The notes under the pieces were generated by a model. It did not search any database and had not been told where the DNA came from. It saw only the letters and a list, made by a program, of their open reading frames with translations. A stretch of DNA of 36,561 nucleotides from assembly GCA_012837885.1 (NCBI GenBank), contig DUQI01000020.1, positions 1 to 36,561 of the forward strand, given 5' to 3'. The stretch is from Fastidiosipila sp. (GTDB lineage Bacteria; Bacillota; Clostridia; Saccharofermentanales; DTU023). Shown here in pieces: positions 837 through 31,128 of the stretch. The translations under genes were made by a program, and so were the position numbers. Within the stretch, counting starts at the first letter, position 1. Every line of letters begins with the position of its first letter.

Positions 837-854
837 GGATTATTGTAATCTAGT
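831..854 (-). terminator. Weak hairpin between convergent genes
   Basis: ACTAG-GATTA and TAATC-TAGT arms form a nine-pair AT-rich stem with a two-base bulge and a three-base loop. The hairpin spans the stop codons of both convergent genes. Read leftward it is followed by CTTTT, so it could be a weak intrinsic terminator for the molybdenum operon. The stem has only two G-C pairs. Confidence 0.3.
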
Positions 855-1347
855 GACCGCCGCCGGCCATCATCTTGAAGGCGTGCTCCAATTGATCGAC
901 GAAGGCATCGATGCTCTCCGCCACCGCTTTTGGACTTCCCGGCAGATTGATGATCAAGGAGTTTCCGCTTATACCGGCTATGCCGCGCGATAGCATCGCC
1001 CGTTTCGTGATCGCCATGCTGTGTGCGCGGATCGCCTCGGCGATGCCGGGCGCTTCTTTCTCGATCTCTTGCTTTGTCGCTTCCGGCGTCACGTCGCGCC
1101 CTGAAAAACCGGTACCGCCGCTCGTCAAAATCAGATCGACCTTGGCTTTCACCGCCTCGCCAATCGCTTTTCGAATCTTTGCCACTTCATCCGGTACGGT
1201 GTCGACGTATGATACGTCAAACGGATAGTCAAGAAGCTTCGCGCGGATCACATCGGCACAGAGGTCTTCTCTCTCGCCGCTGTACGCACGGTCGCTGACG
1301 ATAATGACCGCTACTTCATAGCGCTTATCAGTCGACATAGACGGCAT
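850..1347 (-). CDS. mog: MogA/MoaB-type molybdopterin adenylyltransferase
   Basis: MogA-family proteins adenylylate molybdopterin as the step before molybdate insertion by MoeA. The 165 residues cover one MoCF_biosynth domain. It begins with the beta strand AVIIVSDRAYSGE and continues with LILTSGGTGFSGRDVTPEAT (the molybdopterin-binding GGTG and RDVTPEAT motifs) and the late GNSLIINLPGSPKAV segment. MogA and MoaB homologues are hard to separate by eye. Because no other adenylyltransferase lies in the operon, it probably does the MogA job. The start codon lies inside the end of the MOSC gene (20-base overlap). A second ATG three codons later is equally possible. It is the last gene of the leftward molybdenum operon. 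Confidence 0.9.
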   Translation of the reverse strand: MPSMSTDKRYEVAVIIVSDRAYSGEREDLCADVIRAKLLDYPFDVSYVDTVPDEVAKIRKAIGEAVKAKVDLILTSGGTGFSGRDVTPEATKQEIEKEAPGIAEAIRAHSMAITKRAMLSRGIAGISGNSLIINLPGSPKAVAESIDAFVDQLEHAFKMMAGGGH

Positions 1348-1762
1348 CGCCTCTTTTTACCGAGCCACCCTCCAACACCTTCGCGAACACGCCTTCACGC
1401 GGCATGATGCAGTCGCCGACCGTGTTATAGATGCGGCAGCGGGTGTGGCACTCCTTGCCGATCTGCGTGATCTCGAGCAACGATTCGCCGATTCTCACCT
1501 TCGTACCGACGACGAGTGACACGGGATCGATGCCGGTGACCAGAATGTTCTCACCGAACGCGCCGTTATCGACATCGATGCCGGTTTTGCGGAATCGCTC
1601 GACCTTGTCTTCGGATAACAGGCTCACCTGGCGATGCCAATCGCCGGCATGCGCGTCCCCTTGAATGCCGTGACCGGCGACGAGCAACGCCTCCGGCACT
1701 TCTTTTTTAGGTGTCCCTTTCGCTTCACTGATGCAGACGGCGTAAACTTTACCTTGCAACAT
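1328..1762 (-). CDS. MOSC-domain protein
   Basis: The 144-residue protein consists of a single MOSC domain (the fold shared by the C-terminus of Moco sulfurase and by YiiM/YuaD). The VAGHGIQGDAHAGDWHRQVSLLS segment, the GAFGENI motif and the conserved cysteine region GKECHTRC followed by IMPREGVFAKVLEGG are all present. Stand-alone MOSC proteins bind Moco or handle sulfur on it. The exact reaction here is unknown. The start was placed at 1762 because an AGGAGG lies just upstream at 1768-1773 (reverse strand); the frame stays open further upstream, but that part overlaps moaA. The gene sits between moaA and mog, a common clostridial arrangement that supports a role in cofactor maturation. Confidence 0.88.
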   Translation of the reverse strand: MLQGKVYAVCISEAKGTPKKEVPEALLVAGHGIQGDAHAGDWHRQVSLLSEDKVERFRKTGIDVDNGAFGENILVTGIDPVSLVVGTKVRIGESLLEITQIGKECHTRCRIYNTVGDCIMPREGVFAKVLEGGSVKRGDAVYVD

Positions 1763-1763
1763 G

Positions 1764-2750
1764 TCAGCCTCCTGTCTTATACATGCCTTTGGCGGCATCG
1801 ATTGTCGGCGCATCGACCTCACTGGCCAACACGCCTTGGTGTGCCTCCGGCTTAAAGGCAACGGCATGCGTAATCGCCGCTTCTATCTCTTCATCGCTCG
1901 AGCCGTCTCGGAGTTTTTCTTTCAACGGAATACCGACGTTATAGAACAGACACAGTTTCAGGTGACCAGTGGACGTCAAGCGCAGACGGTTGCAACGGTC
2001 GCAAAACTGGTGACTGATCGCTTCGATAAAGCCGAAGCGTCCCTTGCTGCCGGTCGCCTCGAACATCGCCGCCGGACCGCCCGAAGTATCGGCTTTTGCC
2101 GGCGTCAAGGCGCCATACATTTTCCTCAACGCGACCTTCACTTCCTCGACACGTCCTTCAGGTTTCTCCTCACCGGCCATCGGCATCCATTCGATGAAGC
2201 GCACATCGATTCCGTATCTGTCGGCGAGCGATGCGACGCCGAGCCAGTCGTCCTTCGTGCTATCCGGACTCAAGACGCAGTTTACTTTGACCTTCGTAAA
2301 GCCGACCGCCAGCGCTTCTTCGAGACCGGCCAAGGCCGCGTCAAGCGCATCTTTCCCGGTCAGCGCGGCAAACCGTGTCGGATCGAGCGTATCGATGCTG
2401 ATATTTACGGCGTCGAGGCCGCTTCGTTTCAGTTGCTCGGCCAGCTCGGGAAGCAGTAAACCGTTCGTCGTCATGGCGACATAGTCGATGCCGTCGATCG
2501 CCTTCAACGATTCGACAAGTTCCGGCATCCCTTTCCTGACGAGCGGCTCTCCCCCCGTCAGACGCACGCGATTGACACCGAGTCCGGCCATTATCCGGAC
2601 GAGACGGACGATCTCTTCATACCGCAGTATCTCATCGTGCGGAATAAACTCGACACCTTCCGCCGGCATGCAGTAGCTGCAGCGCAGATTGCAGCGGTCG
2701 GTCACCGAGACCCTGAGGTAGTGAATATGTCTACCGAGACTGTCTTTCAT
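1764..2750 (-). CDS. moaA: GTP 3',8-cyclase MoaA (radical SAM)
   Basis: MoaA with MoaC converts GTP to cyclic pyranopterin monophosphate, the first step of Moco synthesis. The radical SAM motif CNLRCSYC (CxxxCxxC) lies at about residues 20-27. A second Fe-S motif near the C-terminus reads FCDRCNRLRLTSTGHLKLC. The chain ends in the double glycine (YKTGG) that MoaA needs for GTP chemistry. From the start chosen (MKDSLGRHIHYLRVS) the length is 328 residues, normal for the family. An alternative start 15 codons upstream is less likely because homologues begin near this point. The start overlaps the end of moaC by 20 bases, and the stop is next to the start of the MOSC gene. Confidence 0.96.
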   Translation of the reverse strand: MKDSLGRHIHYLRVSVTDRCNLRCSYCMPAEGVEFIPHDEILRYEEIVRLVRIMAGLGVNRVRLTGGEPLVRKGMPELVESLKAIDGIDYVAMTTNGLLLPELAEQLKRSGLDAVNISIDTLDPTRFAALTGKDALDAALAGLEEALAVGFTKVKVNCVLSPDSTKDDWLGVASLADRYGIDVRFIEWMPMAGEEKPEGRVEEVKVALRKMYGALTPAKADTSGGPAAMFEATGSKGRFGFIEAISHQFCDRCNRLRLTSTGHLKLCLFYNVGIPLKEKLRDGSSDEEIEAAITHAVAFKPEAHQGVLASEVDAPTIDAAKGMYKTGG

Positions 2751-3234
2751 AATCACCGCTTTTGCCGCCGGCTTTGGAGACGACACGTACATCATAGATC
2801 TCCATGCTCCGGTCGATCGCCTTCGCCATGTCGTACACGGTCAGAAGGGCGACCGATACGCCGCACAGCGCTTCCATCTCGACCCCGGTTTTGCCGGACG
2901 TCTTCACTTCACACTGTGCATAGAGCACGTGATCTTCTTCGAAAGTAAACGTCACGGTTGCCTTTTCGATCAGGAGGCGGTGGCAAAGCGGAATCAGGTC
3001 CGGTGTGTTCTTCACCGCCATGATCCCGGCGATTCTGGCCGCCGCCAGGACGTCGCCTTTCTTCGCACTGCCTTCGGAAATAGCGCGAAACGCCGCTTCA
3101 TTCATGCGGATACGGCCTTCGGCTACAGCGACACGTGTCGTCTCGGCTTTGGCCGACACATCGACCATCACCGCTTCGCCTTCTTTATTAATATGTGTCA
3201 GAGGATCGCCCATGGGACTTTCACTTTCTATCAT
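2731..3234 (-). CDS. moaC: Cyclic pyranopterin monophosphate synthase MoaC
   Basis: MoaC completes the conversion begun by MoaA, giving cyclic pyranopterin monophosphate. The 167 residues carry the family motifs: LTHINKEGEAVMVDVS near the N-terminus, NTPDLIPLCHRL in the middle, and TGVEMEALCGVSVALLTVYDM followed by VSKAGGKSG at the end. The latter contains the aspartate and lysine known as catalytic in E. coli MoaC. The ATG at 3234 shares one base with the TGA of modC (TGATG), which implies translational coupling. A second in-frame ATG seven codons later matches the usual MoaC N-terminus better and could be the real start. Confidence 0.96.
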   Translation of the reverse strand: MIESESPMGDPLTHINKEGEAVMVDVSAKAETTRVAVAEGRIRMNEAAFRAISEGSAKKGDVLAAARIAGIMAVKNTPDLIPLCHRLLIEKATVTFTFEEDHVLYAQCEVKTSGKTGVEMEALCGVSVALLTVYDMAKAIDRSMEIYDVRVVSKAGGKSGDYERQSR

Positions 3235-4292
3235 CAGGTGGTGTTGTTTCCCCCGGTCAAAAGCAGCACATCTTCCGGTGCGACCGTAAGATACGCCGGT
3301 TTTTCAAACACCTGACTCTCTTTCGTTAACATCCACCAGATCGGTTCAGCACCTTGGCCTTTATCCGGTTGAATCAGTATATTCCATTCAAAAGGCGTTT
3401 CAATGGCGGAACGTATGTCGAATGTTACCATATTTATCACACTGTCTTCGTTCGTCGCTTTAAAAGCGTGTGCACGTACACCGATATGCGTCAGATCGTC
3501 CGGAACGGCATCGGCCGTCTTAAGCGTCAGATTCCAATCCTCGGCGAAAACGGTCAAGTCATCTTTTTTCGTCGCGCGGGAGAGGTTCTTGCACCCCGTC
3601 AAACGCGCCGCCGCGACCGTCCCCGGCTGTTTGAACAAGTCTGCCGTCAAACCGAAATTGTCGACCTGCCCGTGTTCGAGCAGCATCAGCGACGGGCAGA
3701 GTTTATAGACCTCTTCCCTGTCATGCGTCACCATCACGGCGTATCCGTCAAAATCTTCAAGCCGATTTTTCATATCGAGCTGCAGCGACTCTTTCAAGTA
3801 GGCATCGAGTGCGGAAAACGGCTCGTCCAGGAGCAGCACATCCGGTTCACTCGCCAACACTCTGGCTACGGCGACGCGCTGCTGCTGTCCACCCGACAAT
3901 TGAGACGGATACCGTTTGCCGAGACCGTCGAGTTCGAAACGGTGGAGCAACTGTTCAATGCGTGCACCTTTTTCCCGGTTCGGTCCGTCGAGCGCTTCCG
4001 CGATATTTTTTTCGACGGTCATATTCGGAAACAGCGCGTGGTTTTGCAACAGATACCCGACCCGCCTGACCTGCGGCCGCAGATTAATGCGCGCCTTGCT
4101 GTCGTAGAGGACGCGACCGTCCACCTCGATCCGGCCTTCATCCGGCGTGATGATACCGGCGATGCATTTCAAGGTCATGCTCTTGCCGCTGCCGGATGCG
4201 CCCAGAATGCCGAGCGGCATTTTCTCCATCTCAAACGAGACATCGAGGGTAAAGCCCGAATATCTTTTTTTAATATCGACAATCAGGCTCAT
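3234..4292 (-). CDS. modC: Molybdate ABC transporter ATP-binding protein ModC
   Basis: This ATPase of 352 residues would energise molybdate (or tungstate) import with ModA and ModB. It has Walker A GASGSGKS (31-38), Q-loop LLQNHALF, signature LSGGQ (132-136), Walker B DVLLLDEP (151-158), D-loop SALD and the switch histidine in MVTHDREEV. The C-terminal third contains HIGVRAHAF and weakly resembles the regulatory domain of clostridial ModC. It does not show a clear Mop/TOBE sequence, and a separate Mop protein is encoded upstream at 7012. The start overlaps the end of modB by four bases (ATGA). Confidence 0.94.
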   Translation of the reverse strand: MSLIVDIKKRYSGFTLDVSFEMEKMPLGILGASGSGKSMTLKCIAGIITPDEGRIEVDGRVLYDSKARINLRPQVRRVGYLLQNHALFPNMTVEKNIAEALDGPNREKGARIEQLLHRFELDGLGKRYPSQLSGGQQQRVAVARVLASEPDVLLLDEPFSALDAYLKESLQLDMKNRLEDFDGYAVMVTHDREEVYKLCPSLMLLEHGQVDNFGLTADLFKQPGTVAAARLTGCKNLSRATKKDDLTVFAEDWNLTLKTADAVPDDLTHIGVRAHAFKATNEDSVINMVTFDIRSAIETPFEWNILIQPDKGQGAEPIWWMLTKESQVFEKPAYLTVAPEDVLLLTGGNNTT

Positions 4293-4975
4293 TTTCGGTT
4301 CTTCGGGCGCACACCGCGCCGCTCCTTCGCCGTCAGCACATTCATACTGACGACAATGATAAACGAGATTCCGACGAGGATCGCCACGTAGGCGTAGGCG
4401 CCCTCCATGTCACCGCCGGCGACAGCCGAATAGACGGCGAGCGGTAATGTTCTCGTCTGTCCGGCGATATTGCCGGCGATCATGGCGGTCGCGCCGAACT
4501 CGCCGAGGCCTCTGCCGAACGCGAGAATGCCTCCCGAGGCGACGCCCGGTAAAGCCATCGGCATGATCACACGCCAGAAAATCCGCCATTCCGACATACC
4601 GATCGTGCGCGCCGCATAGATCAGGTCGGGATCGACCTGTTCAAAGGCGCCGCGTGCGCTCCTGTACATCAAGGGAAAGGAGATGACGACGGCGGCGATC
4701 ACGGTGGCGGTCCAGTTGAAGACGACTCTTATGCCGAACCACTCGATCAGCATCTTGCCGACCGGACGGTTGACTCCGAAGATGTATAGAAGGAAAAACC
4801 CGGCGACGGTCGGCGGCAATACCATCGGCAAGGTCAAAATGCCGTCGACGACGGCACGGACGCGTTCACGCCGCATGGAGACGACGCCCCATGCGGCGAG
4901 TACGCCCAGGAAGAAAGTAATTACGATCGACAGCACCGCCGTTCTTAACGAGATGAGGATCGCGGAAATATCCAT
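4289..4975 (-). CDS. modB: Molybdate ABC transporter permease ModB
   Basis: This integral membrane subunit of a molybdate importer has 228 residues, the usual ModB length, with about five hydrophobic segments. The N-terminus (MDISAILISLRTAVLSIVITF) is typical of ModB/CysT permeases. The cytoplasmic coupling loop is recognisable as ALPGVASGGILAFGRGLGEFGAT, the EAA-type motif that contacts the ATPase, followed by AGNIAGQTRTLPLAVY, which is characteristic for molybdate permeases. The ATG shares a base with the TAA of modA (TAATG), and the 3' end overlaps modC by four bases, so modABC is a tightly coupled unit. Confidence 0.95.
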   Translation of the reverse strand: MDISAILISLRTAVLSIVITFFLGVLAAWGVVSMRRERVRAVVDGILTLPMVLPPTVAGFFLLYIFGVNRPVGKMLIEWFGIRVVFNWTATVIAAVVISFPLMYRSARGAFEQVDPDLIYAARTIGMSEWRIFWRVIMPMALPGVASGGILAFGRGLGEFGATAMIAGNIAGQTRTLPLAVYSAVAGGDMEGAYAYVAILVGISFIIVVSMNVLTAKERRGVRPKNRK

Positions 4976-5793
4976 TAGGGCAGATTCGATTTAAAGCCGT
5001 TCTTTTCGAACACGGCGATCGCTTCCTTCGATTTCAGGAATTCAATGAACTTCTCGGCTGCCGCTTTTTGCGGTGCATCCTTGAGGATCGCGACCGGATA
5101 GATCACTTTGTTCAGGCTGCCTTCCGGCGCTGCCGTGATCACCTTCACCTTGTCGGGAATCTGCGCAGCATCCGTCGCATACACGACGCCGACTTCGGCA
5201 CTGCCTTCACCGACCTGGTTCAACACTTCCGTCACGTTCGTGCCGAGGCTCGCTTTGGCTTTCACGTCGTCCCAGTTGCCGAGATGCGTAAACACCTGCT
5301 CCGAATACTGACCGACAGGCACGTTGGCCGGATCACCGATCGCGATGGTCGCCGCTTCCGTGACGTTGTCAAATCCCGTCACCTTCGTGTTGGAGTTGAC
5401 GCCCGTGATCAAGACGAGTTGGTTTTCCAGCAGTTCGACGACATTCTCACGCTCGATCTTCCCCTGATCGACGAGGGCATTCATCTGTTTGACAGCCGCG
5501 CTCATGAAAACACTCGCTTCCATGCCTTCCTCGATCTGAGTCTGCAGTTTACCGGATGAATCGTACGTACCGTCCACCGTGATGTTCGGATTGTCCTTAA
5601 CGAACATCGGAATCAGTTCGTCTCTGAAGCTCGCTTCAAGACTCGCCGCAGCCGCCAGTAGCATAGTGGCTTTATCACCCGCCTCTGCCTCGCTGCCTCC
5701 GGTGTCCTTCGGTGCTTCAGTCTTCGGTCCGCATGCGCCAAGCAGCGAGACAGTCAGGAGCAACACCAGTATCAATATCAGTCCTTTTTTCAA
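4975..5793 (-). CDS. modA: Molybdate-binding lipoprotein ModA
   Basis: ModA is the substrate-binding component of the molybdate importer, here anchored to the outer face of the membrane. The best start is TTG at 5793, seven bases after a GAGGAG ribosome binding site. It gives 272 residues beginning MKKGLILILV, a short basic N-region, a hydrophobic core and a lipobox LLGAC, so the mature protein would start at that cysteine. The AAASLEASF motif that binds the oxyanion follows, and later segments (DSSGKLQTQIEEG, IAIGDPANVPVGQY, VGVVYATDA) are typical of ModA. A longer form from the TTG at 5814 is possible but has a worse signal peptide. The gene lies about 30 bases after the MoeA-like gene. Confidence 0.94.
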   Translation of the reverse strand: MKKGLILILVLLLTVSLLGACGPKTEAPKDTGGSEAEAGDKATMLLAAAASLEASFRDELIPMFVKDNPNITVDGTYDSSGKLQTQIEEGMEASVFMSAAVKQMNALVDQGKIERENVVELLENQLVLITGVNSNTKVTGFDNVTEAATIAIGDPANVPVGQYSEQVFTHLGNWDDVKAKASLGTNVTEVLNQVGEGSAEVGVVYATDAAQIPDKVKVITAAPEGSLNKVIYPVAILKDAPQKAAAEKFIEFLKSKEAIAVFEKNGFKSNLP

Positions 5794-5823
5794 TGTTTTA
5801 CTCCTCACTTTCAATCATTGTTT

Positions 5824-6849
5824 CTAAACCCCTGCGCCAAGTGCGCAATTGGGGAATATACATGTGTCGCAGTTAAGACAGAGCCCGCCGTGGCCGAGCG
5901 CTGCGATATCGTCCGAGGTGATCGGCAGATCGGCTAAAATGCGCGGCAAAATAATGTCGAAGATCGTGCGCCCGTGAAACATCACGCACCCGGGCAACCC
6001 GATCAGCGCCTGCCCTTCCTTGGCGTAGCCGAGCATGAACATCGCGCCCGGCAATACCGGCGCGCCGTAGCGCACGACGCGCTCGGCAACCGTCTTGATC
6101 GCGAGCGGTGTGCGATCGTCCGGATCGACACTCATACCGCCGGTACAGAGCACGATCTCGGCACCGTCCGCCAAAAAATCACGGATCGCCTGAACCGTCC
6201 GCTCCGGATCGTCACCGACCAGTCTATGCGGCACATCGTCTATGCCGTATTCTTTTAGCTTTGCCAACACGACCGGGGTAAATGTGTCCCGGATCAGGCC
6301 CTTGTCGACTTCACTGCCCGTCACTACGACGGCGGCCTTTCGCTGCCGATAAGGATGAATGCGTAAAAGCGGCACGTCGCCTGCGACTTGCCGCGCGCGC
6401 TCCATCTTTCCGCTCTCGATCACAAGCGGTATGACGCGTGTTCCGGCCAGTTTGTCGCCTTTTCGGACGGGGCTGTTCGTGTGCCTCGTCGCGATCATCA
6501 TCTCGCCCAGCCGGTTGACGGCTTTCAGGCGTTCGACATCGACCTGGAACAGTCCGTCTTCTGCCGCATATATATCGATTTTGCCTTCTTTGACTTCACT
6601 GCCGGTCATGTGTTCACCGGCCGAGATGTCATACAAAATCGCCGCCGCATCATTTTCATGCAGCATGCCCTCTTTCGCTTCGAAGACGTACAGACTCGCT
6701 TTACCAAGTTTTAGAAGCTCGGGAATGTCAGCCTCAGTGACCACATGCCCGCGGCGAAAGGCGACACCTTTCGTGTCGTCTTTGACGATGCGCGTGATGT
6801 CGTGACAAAGGACGTGACCGACCGCGTCTTCCGTGCGGATTGTTTTCAT
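5824..6849 (-). CDS. MoeA-like molybdopterin-binding protein with cysteine-rich tail
   Basis: The 341-residue protein starts with a domain resembling the linker/N-terminal part of MoeA (DAVGHVLCHDITRI). A MoCF_biosynth molybdopterin-binding domain follows at roughly residues 170-290, with VVVTGSEVDKG and the loop CTGGMSVDPDD. This looks like the clostridial family annotated simply as molybdopterin-binding protein. It is shorter than true MoeA (about 400 residues) and differs in domain order. The end carries CLNCDTCIFPNC, a C-x2-C-x2-C-x4-C pattern that could bind a metal or Fe-S cluster. As first gene of the operon, with a strong AGGAGG (6854-6859) before the ATG, it is the only candidate in the window for the metal-insertion step. 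That role is inference. Confidence 0.85.
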   Translation of the reverse strand: MKTIRTEDAVGHVLCHDITRIVKDDTKGVAFRRGHVVTEADIPELLKLGKASLYVFEAKEGMLHENDAAAILYDISAGEHMTGSEVKEGKIDIYAAEDGLFQVDVERLKAVNRLGEMMIATRHTNSPVRKGDKLAGTRVIPLVIESGKMERARQVAGDVPLLRIHPYRQRKAAVVVTGSEVDKGLIRDTFTPVVLAKLKEYGIDDVPHRLVGDDPERTVQAIRDFLADGAEIVLCTGGMSVDPDDRTPLAIKTVAERVVRYGAPVLPGAMFMLGYAKEGQALIGLPGCVMFHGRTIFDIILPRILADLPITSDDIAALGHGGLCLNCDTCIFPNCALGAGV

Positions 6850-26833: not shown

Positions 26834-27631
26834 ATGAACGAGACTAAGAAGAAAAACACGATTGTCTATTTCGATATCGACGGAACCCTGCTCGATTCGT
26901 CGCGCGATCTGCCGTTATCGGACGCGACGATCGACGCGATCGGGCGACTGAAGGAAAACGGCATCATCGTCGCGATCAATACGGGGCGCGGCTACGGCTT
27001 CATCCCGCCGGAAGTGATGGCTCTCGAATGCGACGCCTACATCGCCGGCTGCGGCACCTATATCACGTATCACGGCGAGACGGTTTTGAATCGTCTTTTT
27101 TCCGAGGAAGAAGCGAGCCGCATCGTCGAAGCGTTTCGCGAGGCGCGCCTCGACATGATCATGGAGGGGCCGGAGCATGTCTATTTCGAGGAGGTCGGCT
27201 TCGATCCGGACGTCGTCGAAAGCTCGCGCCACCTGTTTAATCCGAACCACAGCCTGCGTACCCTGACACAGGAAGCCGTCCTGGCGAACAAGATCAGTTA
27301 TGTCGCTACGACGGAGGAAAAGGACATGTACGTCAGAGATGCCCTGGCCGATATCCTGACCTTTATTCTCTACCCGCATCAGGTGCGAGAAGGACTTCCC
27401 CACGGCTTTAATAAGGCGACCGGCATGGAAGCGCTGGAGCGTCTGATCGGTGACGCGTACACGTACGCCTTCGGCGACTCGATGAATGACATCGACATGC
27501 TGGAGCGCGCCGATGTCGGTATCGCCATGGCCTGCGGTCAGAGCGCCGCCAAAGAAGTAAGCGACAAAATCGCGCTTCCCCTGGCCGAAGACGGCACCGC
27601 GAAGATGCTGGCAACGCTCGGCCTGATTTAA
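26834..27631 (+). CDS. Cof-type HAD-IIB phosphatase
   Basis: The 265-residue HAD superfamily hydrolase has motif I YFDIDGTLLDSS with both catalytic aspartates. Motif II is in VAINTGRGYG, the lysine is in HGFNKATGMEALERL, and motif IV is YAFGDSMNDIDMLERADVGIAM. The cap domain type and overall length fit the Cof/YidA group, which dephosphorylates sugar phosphates, pyridoxal phosphate or flavin mononucleotide. Which of these applies cannot be told. The gene has its own promoter and no ribosome binding site, suggesting a leaderless transcript. The DUF3783-like gene follows 13 bases after the stop and is probably co-transcribed. Confidence 0.92.
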   Translation: MNETKKKNTIVYFDIDGTLLDSSRDLPLSDATIDAIGRLKENGIIVAINTGRGYGFIPPEVMALECDAYIAGCGTYITYHGETVLNRLFSEEEASRIVEAFREARLDMIMEGPEHVYFEEVGFDPDVVESSRHLFNPNHSLRTLTQEAVLANKISYVATTEEKDMYVRDALADILTFILYPHQVREGLPHGFNKATGMEALERLIGDAYTYAFGDSMNDIDMLERADVGIAMACGQSAAKEVSDKIALPLAEDGTAKMLATLGLI

Positions 27632-27644
27632 CGGAGGATTATTA

Positions 27645-28217
27645 ATGACCAAAGAACCTGCTGTCATACTCGTCTACGGAGCGACGGAAGACGACCGTCG
27701 CGTCATCTTCATGCGCGAAGGCGAATCGTACCTGAATTACCGTCTACGCCTCGTCGACAAAGGAGAAACCGATAAAACGATCGAGACGCTCGTCCACTCC
27801 CTGCCCGAAACGAAGGTAGCGGTTGATCCGGATGCCCCGGGTTTACTGCTCTTTTCCGGTATGGACGATCAGGTGATGCGACAGTTTCTCGGTGCCTTGA
27901 GAGACAATCAGGTGCGCTTTGAGCTAAAAGCGATGGTGACCGAGACGAACCGCACCTGGACGCTCGCCGCCCTGCTCGATGAATTAAAAGAAGAACATCA
28001 ACTGATGCAGGCCTGGCAGCAGCTGGCTGCCGTGACCGAAAAGGCGGATCTGCTCTTGATGGAGCCGGCGGTGCTCTTGGATAAAGGTGGATTCGAAGCA
28101 GACGTGGAAGCGACCAAAGCGTATCTTCGTCGCCAGAATATGGATGAGATCACGCTTGATAACTTAACCGAAAAGAGGAAAATTCTGGAGGCGCATTTGA
28201 CGCGTCTCGGTTATTAA
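27645..28217 (+). CDS. DUF3783-like protein of unknown function
   Basis: I do not know a function. The 190 residues contain a central segment, LLLFSGMDDQVMRQFLGALRDNQ then FELKAMVTETNRTWTLAALLDELKEEH, that matches my memory of DUF3783 proteins from clostridia. The C-terminal 60 residues are charged and helical. The first 25 residues (AVILVYGATEDDRRVIFMREG) look like a short alpha/beta start. There is no signal peptide or membrane segment. A CGGAGG ribosome binding site precedes the ATG. It is the last gene before the origin region, where many relatives instead have rpmH and rnpA in the opposite direction. Confidence 0.75.
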   Translation: MTKEPAVILVYGATEDDRRVIFMREGESYLNYRLRLVDKGETDKTIETLVHSLPETKVAVDPDAPGLLLFSGMDDQVMRQFLGALRDNQVRFELKAMVTETNRTWTLAALLDELKEEHQLMQAWQQLAAVTEKADLLLMEPAVLLDKGGFEADVEATKAYLRRQNMDEITLDNLTEKRKILEAHLTRLGY

Positions 28218-28439
28218 CGTCGAACATTTGTGCAGCGATTTGTCGATCACTTGCCGGCTCGACATTAGCGGAAGTTACTCACAAAGTTATTAACAATGTG
28301 GAAAGCTAAATTCACAGAATCCACCACAGTTAATTTGTTAATAACTCTGAAAACGTCGTGCTCTTAGGCATTTTGACCTTTCAACTTGAGCCGGTTTCTG
28401 TTAACATAACTCCTACCAAAAAGAAATGCGGTGAGATGT
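28218..28439. other. oriC: Origin-associated region upstream of dnaA
   Basis: This 222-base AT-rich spacer holds DnaA-box-like sequences. TTATTAACA occurs in both orientations as part of a 12-bp perfect inverted repeat. TTACTCACA (28276-28284) differs from TTATCCACA at two positions, as does CTTTCCACA read on the reverse strand (28298-28306). Upstream of dnaA such clusters usually serve both replication initiation and dnaA autoregulation. TTGACC (28373-28378) could be a -35 element, but no well-spaced -10 was found. Confidence 0.6.
28285..28346. repeat. 12-bp inverted repeat before dnaA
   Basis: AGTTATTAACAA (28285-28296) and its exact complement TTGTTAATAACT (28335-28346) face each other across 38 bases. 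Each arm contains TTATTAACA, two changes from the DnaA box. Confidence 0.7.
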
Positions 28440-29780
28440 ATGATGCCTACGCAGGCAAAGAGAATTTGGCAGCAGGCGTGCGACGAATATCTGCAGGGAC
28501 AGGTCAGCGCGCTCTCATTTAGTACCTGGTTTACCAAGGTTGAACCTTATCTGAAAGACGATGAAACGATCGCGCTTTCGGTTCCCGATGATATGATCCG
28601 CGAGCATATCGAAGATTATATGCCGCTCGTTCGAAAAGCGATTACCAGAGTCAGTCGTCAACCGTTCGACGTTGTGGTGGAAGTCGGTGTCGACGAGGTC
28701 GAAGAACGACGAAACGGCAAGTCGAAAACGGCGCCGGTGGCAGAAAGTGCACCGGGTGGAAGACGTTTATTGCTGAATCCGAACCTGACATTCGATAATT
28801 TCATCGTCGGTGGCGGCAATGAGCTCGCTTACACGGCCAGTCAATCGATGGCCAACCAACACGCACATCAGTTCTCCCCTCTTTATCTTTACGGCGGGTC
28901 CGGTGTCGGTAAGACGCATCTTTTGCATGCGATCGGTAACCATGTGCAAAAGATGATGCCGTCCAAGCTCGTGATCTACATCCCGACCGAGCAGTTTGTC
29001 AACGAATACATCGGCTGCATCAAGAGCAACCGGTTCGAAGAGTTCAGAAACAAGTACAGAAAGGCCGATTTTCTCCTGATCGACGACATCCAGTTTTTGG
29101 AGGGCAAGGAAAAAATGCAAGAAGAGTTCTTCCACACCTTCAATTCGGTGCATGAATCGGGCAAATACGTCGCCTTAACCTGTGATAAACCGCCGAAGAG
29201 TCTGACGACGCTCGAAGATAGGATCACGACGCGCCTTTCGAGCGGTTACACGATCGATATTCAACCGCCCGATTACGAGACGAGGGTGGCGATCCTGAAC
29301 AATCTTTCAGAAACACATCAGATCCATATGCCGTTGGATGTCATTGAATATATGGCGAAGAACATCTCGAGCAACGTGCGTGAACTGGAAGGCGCATTTA
29401 AGACATTGACCGCGATCTCTCAGCTCGGTGCACCGATTACACTTGAAGTCGCACAGAATGTACTGAAAAACATCGTGCAGCCAGGTGCCGTAAAAGTGAT
29501 CGACAGCCGTCACGTGATGGATATCGTCTCCAATTATTACGGCGTGACGATCGCCGATCTGATGTCGAAGCGACGCAGTCAGGATATCGTCCTGCCGCGT
29601 CAGATCGCGATGTACCTCTGCCGTCAAAAAACGAACATGACATTGGCGGAAATCGGCGATGCATTCGGGGGCAAAAACCACGCAACCGTCATACATGCCT
29701 ATGATAAAATCAAGGACGATTTGAAGAGCAACACTCATCTCCTGGAGCATGTGACGGCGATTGAGGCGAGGCTCGGTTAG
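28440..29780 (+). CDS. dnaA: Chromosomal replication initiator DnaA
   Basis: DnaA binds the origin and melts it. The 446 residues show domain I (KRIWQQACDEYLQGQVSALSFSTWF), a short variable domain II, and the AAA+ domain III with Walker A GGSGVGKT (153-160), Walker B LLIDDIQFL (about 211-219) and sensor DRITTRL. Domain IV has the DNA-binding signature FGGKNHATVIHAYDKI. The start at 28440 lies four bases after GGTGAG. A GTG at 28431 and an ATG at 28443 are other options. Box clusters occur on both sides, as in Bacillus subtilis. Confidence 0.98.
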   Translation: MMPTQAKRIWQQACDEYLQGQVSALSFSTWFTKVEPYLKDDETIALSVPDDMIREHIEDYMPLVRKAITRVSRQPFDVVVEVGVDEVEERRNGKSKTAPVAESAPGGRRLLLNPNLTFDNFIVGGGNELAYTASQSMANQHAHQFSPLYLYGGSGVGKTHLLHAIGNHVQKMMPSKLVIYIPTEQFVNEYIGCIKSNRFEEFRNKYRKADFLLIDDIQFLEGKEKMQEEFFHTFNSVHESGKYVALTCDKPPKSLTTLEDRITTRLSSGYTIDIQPPDYETRVAILNNLSETHQIHMPLDVIEYMAKNISSNVRELEGAFKTLTAISQLGAPITLEVAQNVLKNIVQPGAVKVIDSRHVMDIVSNYYGVTIADLMSKRRSQDIVLPRQIAMYLCRQKTNMTLAEIGDAFGGKNHATVIHAYDKIKDDLKSNTHLLEHVTAIEARLG

Positions 29781-30027
29781 TTCACAAATTCACACGCTTG
29801 TGCAAAAGACCGTGTGAATAGACGTGTGGAAACCGTGTGAAGAACAGGCATATGTGAGTCGTGTTGACAAAATGATCAGTCATTCACAAGAAAGCTGACG
29901 AACGATTCACATCGGAAAAGTAGAGACGGTCGGGTCAATTCCAGTTATTGACAGAATTGACAGACCATAACAATAAAGAAGGATAAAAGCTATAGAGATA
30001 GGCTGATGCCTACGCGGAGGAGACCTC
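29781..30027. other. oriC: Origin region between dnaA and dnaN
   Basis: About eight DnaA-box-like 9-mers are crowded into 131 bases. Those on the plus strand end at 29786, 29794, 29888 and 29911. Those on the minus strand start at 29813, 29825, 29836 and 29853. Most share the core TTCACA instead of TCCACA, while 29825-29833 (GTTTCCACA in reverse) has the canonical core. An AT-rich stretch (29941-30000, about two thirds A+T) follows and could be the unwinding element. The arrangement matches the dnaA-dnaN part of bipartite Firmicute origins. Confidence 0.75.
29948..29976 (+). promoter_or_regulatory. Candidate dnaN promoter with duplicated -35
   Basis: TTGACA occurs twice, at 29948-29953 and 29957-29962, as part of a nine-base direct repeat (TTGACAGAA, TTGACAGAC). 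The first is followed after 17 bases by CAATAA (29971-29976), a weak -10. The leader to dnaN would be about 45 bases. Confidence 0.35.
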
Positions 30028-31128
30028 ATGAAAGTCATATGTTCCAGAAGTTTGTTTGTCGATGCGATCAATACGGTACAAAAAGCCGTCGGTACTCATA
30101 CGACATTGAGTATCTTGGAAGGCATTTTGTTTGAAGCGAGCGACAGCGTAAAGCTGACCGGGTATGATTCGGAAACCGGTATTGAACATACGATGCCGGC
30201 AGAAGTACTGGTGCCAGGTCAAGTCGTTATCGCGGCGAGACTTCTCGGTGACGTCGTCAGAAAGTTGCCTGAAGATACGGTCAAGATTGAGGTCAATGAC
30301 AATTTGATGATCACGATCGAAAGCGGCAGCAGTGTCTTTCATCTGAGAGGACTCTCCGCTCTCGATTATCCGAAGATTCCGATTGTCGAAGAAGCAAGAC
30401 TGCTTAAAGTGCCGCAGAATAAACTGATCGAGATGATCCGTCAGACGGCGTTTTCGGCCAGCACCGACGACAGCCGACCGATATTGAACGGTGTGAACGT
30501 CGTGTTGGAAAACGGTGTTCTGACGCTGGTGGCGGTCGACGGCTTCCGCCTCGCTGTGCGACACGAAGAGGTCGAGGCGAAGGAGGAATCGGTATCCTTC
30601 ATCGTCCCCGCCAAAGCGATGAATGAGGTGGCCAGAGTGCTGCCGAACGTCGAAGGCGACATCTCTATTTACTATTCACATAATCATATTCTGTTCGATT
30701 CGGAAGAGACGCGTCTCGTCTCGCGCCTGATCCGTGGCGAATTTATGAACTACAAGGGATTGATTCCGAGTTCAGCTGAATCGAGCCTCGTGATCAACAC
30801 GAGTCACCTGTTGGCTGCCTGTGAGCGCGCCTCCTTGATCATCGAATCGGAGAGCAAACGCTTCCCGGTGACGTTTGTCAGCACATCGGACAGCGAACTG
30901 CAGGTATCGGCCAGAACCGACGTCGGTACGACAGAAGAAGATATTGAGGTGAAACTGACCGGCAAGCGTTTCGATATCGATTTCAATCCGAAGTACTTTA
31001 TCGACATCTTGAAAGTGGTACCGGATGAAGAGATAAAGATCGAGTTTTCCGGAAGCGTCGGACCGAGTGTGATCAAGCCGTTGGAAGGTGACCGCTACGC
31101 CTACATGATCTTGCCGCTACGCCGCTGA
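30028..31128 (+). CDS. dnaN: DNA polymerase III beta subunit (sliding clamp)
   Basis: DnaN encircles DNA as a dimer and tethers polymerase and repair enzymes. The 366 residues follow the three-domain clamp pattern: MKVICSRSLFVDAINTVQKAV at the start, FSASTDDSRPILNGVNVV and LVAVDGFRLAVRHEEV in domain II, and GDRYAYMILPLRR at the end, which forms part of the peptide-binding pocket. GGAGGAG stands before the ATG. The TGA shares one base with the recF ATG. Confidence 0.98.
   Translation: MKVICSRSLFVDAINTVQKAVGTHTTLSILEGILFEASDSVKLTGYDSETGIEHTMPAEVLVPGQVVIAARLLGDVVRKLPEDTVKIEVNDNLMITIESGSSVFHLRGLSALDYPKIPIVEEARLLKVPQNKLIEMIRQTAFSASTDDSRPILNGVNVVLENGVLTLVAVDGFRLAVRHEEVEAKEESVSFIVPAKAMNEVARVLPNVEGDISIYYSHNHILFDSEETRLVSRLIRGEFMNYKGLIPSSAESSLVINTSHLLAACERASLIIESESKRFPVTFVSTSDSELQVSARTDVGTTEEDIEVKLTGKRFDIDFNPKYFIDILKVVPDEEIKIEFSGSVGPSVIKPLEGDRYAYMILPLRR

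Follow-up and report, generated by a model that had tools for sequence, protein, structure and literature searches.

Variant DnaA boxes between dnaA and dnaN in a Fastidiosipila genome: a probable oriC2 and a proposed relaxation of recognition at box position 5

Introduction

Does a dense group of atypical DnaA boxes mark a replication origin and, if so, why do its boxes depart from the usual form at position 5? DnaA and the box it binds are commonly regarded as close to universal, TTATCCACA is the default of origin-finding programs, and the gap between dnaA and dnaN is the standard place of oriC2. The 36,561-nucleotide stretch of DNA analyzed here (the window) is one contig (C110) of a 1.93 Mb metagenome-assembled genome of a Fastidiosipila sp., which comprises 121 contigs. 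An initial annotation of this sequence described a cluster of 9-mers sharing TTCACA in the dnaA-dnaN gap and offered two readings: that the DnaA of this lineage prefers T at the fifth position of its box, or that the sites are weak and cooperative.

Results

A dense cluster of TTCACA-type boxes lies between dnaA and dnaN

The dnaA gene (28431..29780, + strand) was taken from the list of open reading frames; its product matches the Pfam families Bac_DnaA, Bac_DnaA_C and DnaA_N, and was aligned to chain A of 1J1V and chain A of 8BTG. The frame is listed from a GTG at 28431, with the ATG at 28440 being the likelier start. The right boundary of the putative oriC2 is formed by dnaN (30028..31128, + strand), a listed frame named from its sequence and gene order. 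In the 134 bp at 29778-29911, TTCACA occurs six times, where the remainder of the window predicts 0.048 (Poisson p = 1.6e-11), and TNCACA eight times, where it predicts 0.118 (p = 8e-13); no second 134-bp stretch in the 36.5 kb window equals this count. Elsewhere in the 1.93 Mb genome, the triple TGTGRA array found at 29813-29841 does not recur, and WTTCACA...TTCACA spanning no more than 30 bp recurs once. The early impression of about eight TTCACA-like 9-mers in 134 bases is borne out by this enrichment, and all five of the 9-mers first quoted are present.

The box positions of the cluster are conserved in the congener, G001 (locus L033), the sole genome of the same genus in our comparison set, whose DnaA is 87-88% identical to that of the window. 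From left to right, the cluster contains TAGTTCACA (29778..29786, +; CTTTTCACA in the congener), AAATTCACA (29786..29794, +; the same 9-mer in the congener), TTTTGCACA (29799..29807, -; TCGTCAACA), CTATTCACA (29813..29821, -; CAATTCACA), GTTTCCACA (29825..29833, -; TTGTTCACA), TTCTTCACA (29836..29844, -; TTATCCACA), a weak, off-core ninth site CGACTCACA (29853..29861, -; TATTTCACA), an A6-type box TTGTCAACA (29862..29870, -) that is not conserved in the congener, and the rightward boxes TCATTCACA (29880..29888, +; CGGTGCACA) and CGATTCACA (29903..29911, +; CCGTCAACA). The box at 29825 is the only TNCACA site of the cluster with C at position 5 (C5), in agreement with the single TCCACA box reported at first. 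Sites in the left half do point in mixed directions, as had been described, and they number seven (two rightward and five leftward) rather than four. The last two boxes point rightward to an AT-rich stretch, again as described. Few boxes of the cluster match TTA at positions 1-3, and for this reason their interpretation as weak, cooperative sites is plausible.

Boxes flank dnaA on both sides, next to DNA of low predicted stability

A second set of boxes, absent from the initial annotation, lies upstream of dnaA at 28275..28344 (putative oriC1) and comprises TTACTCACA (28275, +), TTATTAACA (28287, +), CTTTCCACA (28297, -), AAATTCACA (28308, +) and TTATTAACA (28336, -); both copies of TTATTAACA are perfect and TTAT-prefixed. 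In a nearest-neighbour stability profile of the region 27.0-31.2 kb, the least stable 80 bp (28273-28352) fall at oriC1, and the least stable 50 bp (29945..29994) lie directly to the right of the last rightward box, DUE-proximal CGATTCACA. The latter stretch is mostly conserved in the congener and is our candidate DNA-unwinding element (DUE). DnaA-box clusters are thus found on both sides of dnaA (28275-28344 and 29778-29911) with an AT-rich candidate unwinding element beside an oriC2 box, the arrangement expected of a bipartite oriC.

The gene order downstream of dnaN is recF, a RemA-like frame, gyrB, parA and parB, with names assigned from sequence and order; the recF product has Pfam support, and the Pfam match of the RemA-like frame is sub-threshold. 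Within the window, which belongs to a genome in 121 contigs, GC skew is positive from about 28 kb, near dnaA, and most genes before 17 kb are encoded on the minus strand. The dnaA-dnaN context, the oriC1 boxes and the adjacent candidate DUE together favor the original assignment of these sites as DnaA boxes at a replication origin. A scan of 28180-30060 for promoters and terminators gave matches no more numerous than in shuffled sequences. Immediately upstream of dnaA (26834-28217), the window carries an ORF for a HAD-like phosphatase and a DUF3783 ORF in place of rnpA-rpmH, the usual upstream neighbours of dnaA. Farther away, on the minus strand at 850-6849, ORF translations reveal an apparent cluster of genes for molybdopterin biosynthesis and a molybdate/tungstate ABC transporter.

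In the mechanism that we propose, domain IV of DnaA would bind the mixed-orientation boxes of oriC2 together with those of oriC1, and the rightward boxes at 29880 and 29903 would guide a DnaA oligomer toward the AT-rich DNA of 29945-29994, the putative site of duplex opening and helicase loading. The oriC2 boxes, mostly without TTA at positions 1-3, are probably low-affinity, 6-mer-like sites that DnaA would occupy cooperatively, starting from stronger boxes of the TTATTAACA type. A search for a DnaA-trio, taken as a run of [CT]T[AT] triplets some 16-25 bp to the 3' side of a box, gave no run of at least two near the window boxes in oriC1 or oriC2 and nothing above shuffles; very degenerate NAN triplets may occur. 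In the family of the window (f1), runs of this pattern do not exceed 4, and clostridia with D433 often have runs of 4-8. A DnaA-trio opening mechanism of the B. subtilis type is unsupported at oriC2, and the proposed opening step is therefore placed by position and AT content only. Clear runs of the trio (CTA/TTA repeats), which many other families in this class show, are largely missing from the dnaA-dnaN gaps of the order (families f1-f4).

The recognition helix of DnaA is altered

In E. coli DnaA, the helix spanning residues 434-451 reads TnCACA, and the T435M substitution is defective in box binding (PMC5742627); D433, H434 and T435 are described as conserved among Firmicutes in a study of C. 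difficile (PMC7561715). Alignment to the E. coli protein (1J1V) shows that the corresponding segment of the window DnaA reads GGKNHATVIHA against GGRDHTTVLHA, and hence carries R432K, D433N and T435A, with H434 and T436 unchanged. The canonical domain IV set of R399, D433, H434, T435 and H439 is accordingly incomplete: the basic-loop Arg, H434 and H439 are kept, and the specificity residues to which the initial annotation had pointed are changed at two positions, D433N and T435A. This is a property of the family, in which the helix reads KNHAT or RNHAT (KNHTT in one member) and not R432-D433-H434-T435-T436. We propose that the boxes look unusual because the recognition helix of the family has changed: D433N and T435A, usually with R432K, would relax the readout of box position 5, and base 5 would then drift, mostly to T.

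Base 5 is variable between congeners

Box-by-box alignment with the congener shows that most boxes are in place and that T4 and A7-C8-A9 are mostly unchanged. At roughly half of the sites the two genomes have a different base 5, often T in one and C in the other, as seen in the window/congener pairs TTCTTCACA/TTATCCACA, GTTTCCACA/TTGTTCACA, TCATTCACA/CGGTGCACA and CGATTCACA/CCGTCAACA, and further in TTTTGCACA/TCGTCAACA, AAATTCACA/AAATACACA and CTTTCCACA/CAATTCACA. It is therefore the boxes, rather than the TTCACA sequence itself, that are conserved.

Residue 433 covaries with base 5 among clostridial origins

We compared position 5 across the dnaA-dnaN gaps of about 170 genomes or loci, mostly from the same class, with Saccharibacteria and a few others. 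Among boxes with C at position 6 (C6), the T5:C5 counts, which are not independent within family f1, are 36:6 for DnaAs with KNHA (all from family f1), 19:123 for RDHT and 2:45 for RDHS. Within a matched GC bin the C6 counts are 23:10 for NHA and 11:97 for DHT/DHS, and below 30% GC they are 14:1 and 15:115. Background T/(T+C) is 0.62-0.76; family f1 lies near this composition, whereas D433 lineages hold C5 against it, which argues for relaxation rather than a new preference for T.

One reading of the T5 excess is that the DnaA of this family is a true specialist that requires T5 and a TTCAC core, as in Campylobacterota (Helicobacter, Arcobacter). In accord with this, six TNCACA boxes of oriC2 carry T5 in each congener, genus g3 of the family has 14 TTCACA and zero TCCACA, and K432, which Campylobacterota DnaA also has (PMC5043019), accompanies T5 in family f1, the R432 members of genus g5 being richer in C5; a role for K432 within the family is at most suggestive. 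However, homologous boxes swap T for C, G or A between the congeners, non-origin boxes of the genus (g1), located upstream of smpB, carry all four bases (A, C, G and T) at this position, the T:C ratio of the family is near base composition, and the helix has N433 and A435 where Campylobacterota have D433 and S/T435. We consider a strict requirement for T5 unlikely. What survives of the proposed T5 preference is a family-wide move off C5, as given by the 36:6 and 19:123 ratios.

Alternatively, any base may be tolerated at position 5 everywhere, the T excess reflecting intergenic C-to-T pressure and the helix changes being irrelevant. The E. coli consensus TTWTNCACA, in which base 5 is reported to be irrelevant to binding (PMC5043019), is consistent with this, as is the fact that N433 lineages outside family f1 mostly keep C5. 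Against it, D433 lineages keep C5 at matched GC (97/108) and below 30% GC (115/130), and base 5 is therefore normally constrained; nor is the G5 of K433 or T433 lineages predicted by AT pressure. Mutational drift with no part for the helix is, in our judgment, improbable.

Relaxation through the helix change is further examined by the statistics at the level of sequence clusters of domain IV, which we took as units for Mann-Whitney tests. The mean C5 fraction is 0.68 for D or H at residue 433 (47 clusters), 0.45 for N (10) and 0.05 for K or T (6), values in which the N433 data come mostly from one clade and the clusters are not fully independent; D/H differs from N (p = 0.006) and from K/T (p = 9e-5). 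Taken by itself, the T5 fraction shows no significant difference between clusters with N433 and those with D/H433 (p = 0.19). The K433 and T433 DnaAs belong nearly all to one genus of the sister family f2, in the same order, whose origin boxes are TTATGAACA, with G5 and A6 (loci L199-L208, L069, L129, L130 and L134); one T433 DnaA outside this genus (f165, G561) is likewise without C5. We found no report of TTATGAACA as a DnaA box in the open-access papers searched, and it may still be reported elsewhere. Residue 433 correlates with base 5 across this survey, with a small number of independent changes.

Three other hypotheses were rejected. N433/A435 alone does not force T5: in unrelated lineages outside family f1, DnaAs with this pair have boxes with mostly CA (f50) or CC (G280, f7) at positions 5 and 6, and those with N433 and T435 keep C5 (CC/CA in f191) or have C5/G5 (CC/GC in f163), so that these lineages mostly keep C5. 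The pair thus appears to permit drift to T5, and not to dictate it. K432 is not the sole determinant, with C5 kept in KDHT and KDHS DnaAs. Finally, a change from C6 to A6 caused by D433N through an Asn-adenine contact was discarded on the evidence of the many RDHT clostridia that use TTATCAACA or TTATTAACA; position 6 is often A in family f1, a feature common to many D433 clostridia and unlinked to the helix.

Box clusters outside the origin

Canonical TTATCCACA occurs four times in the genome, on four different contigs. One of these matches led to five same-strand boxes upstream of smpB and next to tsaD (G000:C12:2824-2925; L226:2824-2925; L070), namely TTCTGCACA, TTATCCACA, TTATACACA, TTTTGCACA and TCGTTCACA. 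The tandem group is kept in the congener, with base 5 changed again. Among the genera of the family, g1, g2, g5 and g6 have multi-box groups at this place, and g3 and g4 mostly lack them. These boxes support TTATN(C/A)ACA as the motif likely to be recognized, the oriC2 sites being apparently weaker in their 5' third. Clusters of DnaA boxes are known outside origins, such as datA and DARS of E. coli and those of B. subtilis, and the smpB-upstream cluster, which resembles these titration or regulatory sites, is a candidate for a site of this kind; to our knowledge, its place is not among their known locations. A separate group of three boxes in 30 bp (TTTTGCACA, TTATTAACA and TTATCCACA) was observed at G000:C48:3145-3174 (L227), upstream of rpiB-like and upp-like ORFs.

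That the cluster in the dnaA-dnaN gap is instead a set of operators, through which DnaA or another repressor would act on dnaN or dnaA, with replication starting elsewhere, for example at the smpB-upstream cluster on contig C12 with its apparently stronger boxes and retention in several genera of the family, is very improbable given the standard oriC2 place, the boxes flanking dnaA, the adjoining least stable DNA of the region, the window's change to positive skew near dnaA, and the lack of the smpB cluster in most members of g3 and g4. Nor were canonical TTATCCACA clusters found at a skew switch elsewhere, the observation that was expected to overturn the first interpretation: the smpB-upstream cluster contains TTATCCACA and shows no GC-skew switch.

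Discussion

Taken together, these results suggest that the locus is an ordinary origin, and that what sets it apart is a lineage-specific relaxation of DnaA-box recognition. We consider it likely, from comparative sequence evidence, that the cluster is the oriC2 of a bipartite origin flanking dnaA, and that recognition of its boxes has been relaxed through the change in the recognition helix.

The arrangement resembles the bipartite oriC of Firmicutes, including B. subtilis and the oriC1/oriC2 of Clostridioides difficile (PMC7561715), in its mixed-orientation boxes on both sides of dnaA, its AT-rich stretch in the dnaA-dnaN gap and the recF-gyrB order downstream. It differs in having mainly T5 boxes, no clear DnaA-trio, a DUF3783 gene upstream rather than rpmH, and a helix reading KNHAT rather than RDHTT. 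The prevalent TTCACA, degenerate first three positions, bipartite layout and K432 recall the TTCAC-core origins of Campylobacterota (Epsilonproteobacteria; PMC5043019). In contrast to these, T5 is not present in every box, with C5, G5 and A5 found across the window origin, the congener and the smpB cluster, and the window DnaA has N433, A435 and H439 in place of D433, S/T435 and a frequent K439; the phylum is unrelated, and the resemblance would be convergent. A6 boxes are shared with mollicutes, in which TTWTCAACA (PMC3322544) and TTATTAACA (PMC2751442) are used, the exact TTATTAACA occurring here upstream of dnaA, although here A6 boxes are mixed with C6 boxes.

A broader interpretation, to which we give about even chances, is that residue 433 switches the specificity of DnaA at position 5 of the box, with D or H specifying C5, K or T specifying G5 (TTATGAACA), and N with A435 giving relaxed recognition that drifts to T5. 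One clostridial order would then have rewired the recognition between initiator and origin in several directions, with origins and the smpB-upstream cluster co-evolving. Helix and box have shifted together in this family, and to G5 in its sister family, providing a natural mutational series for how an initiator and its dozen-odd sites change specificity. Origins of these lineages will be overlooked or scored too low by box searches that default to TTATCCACA.
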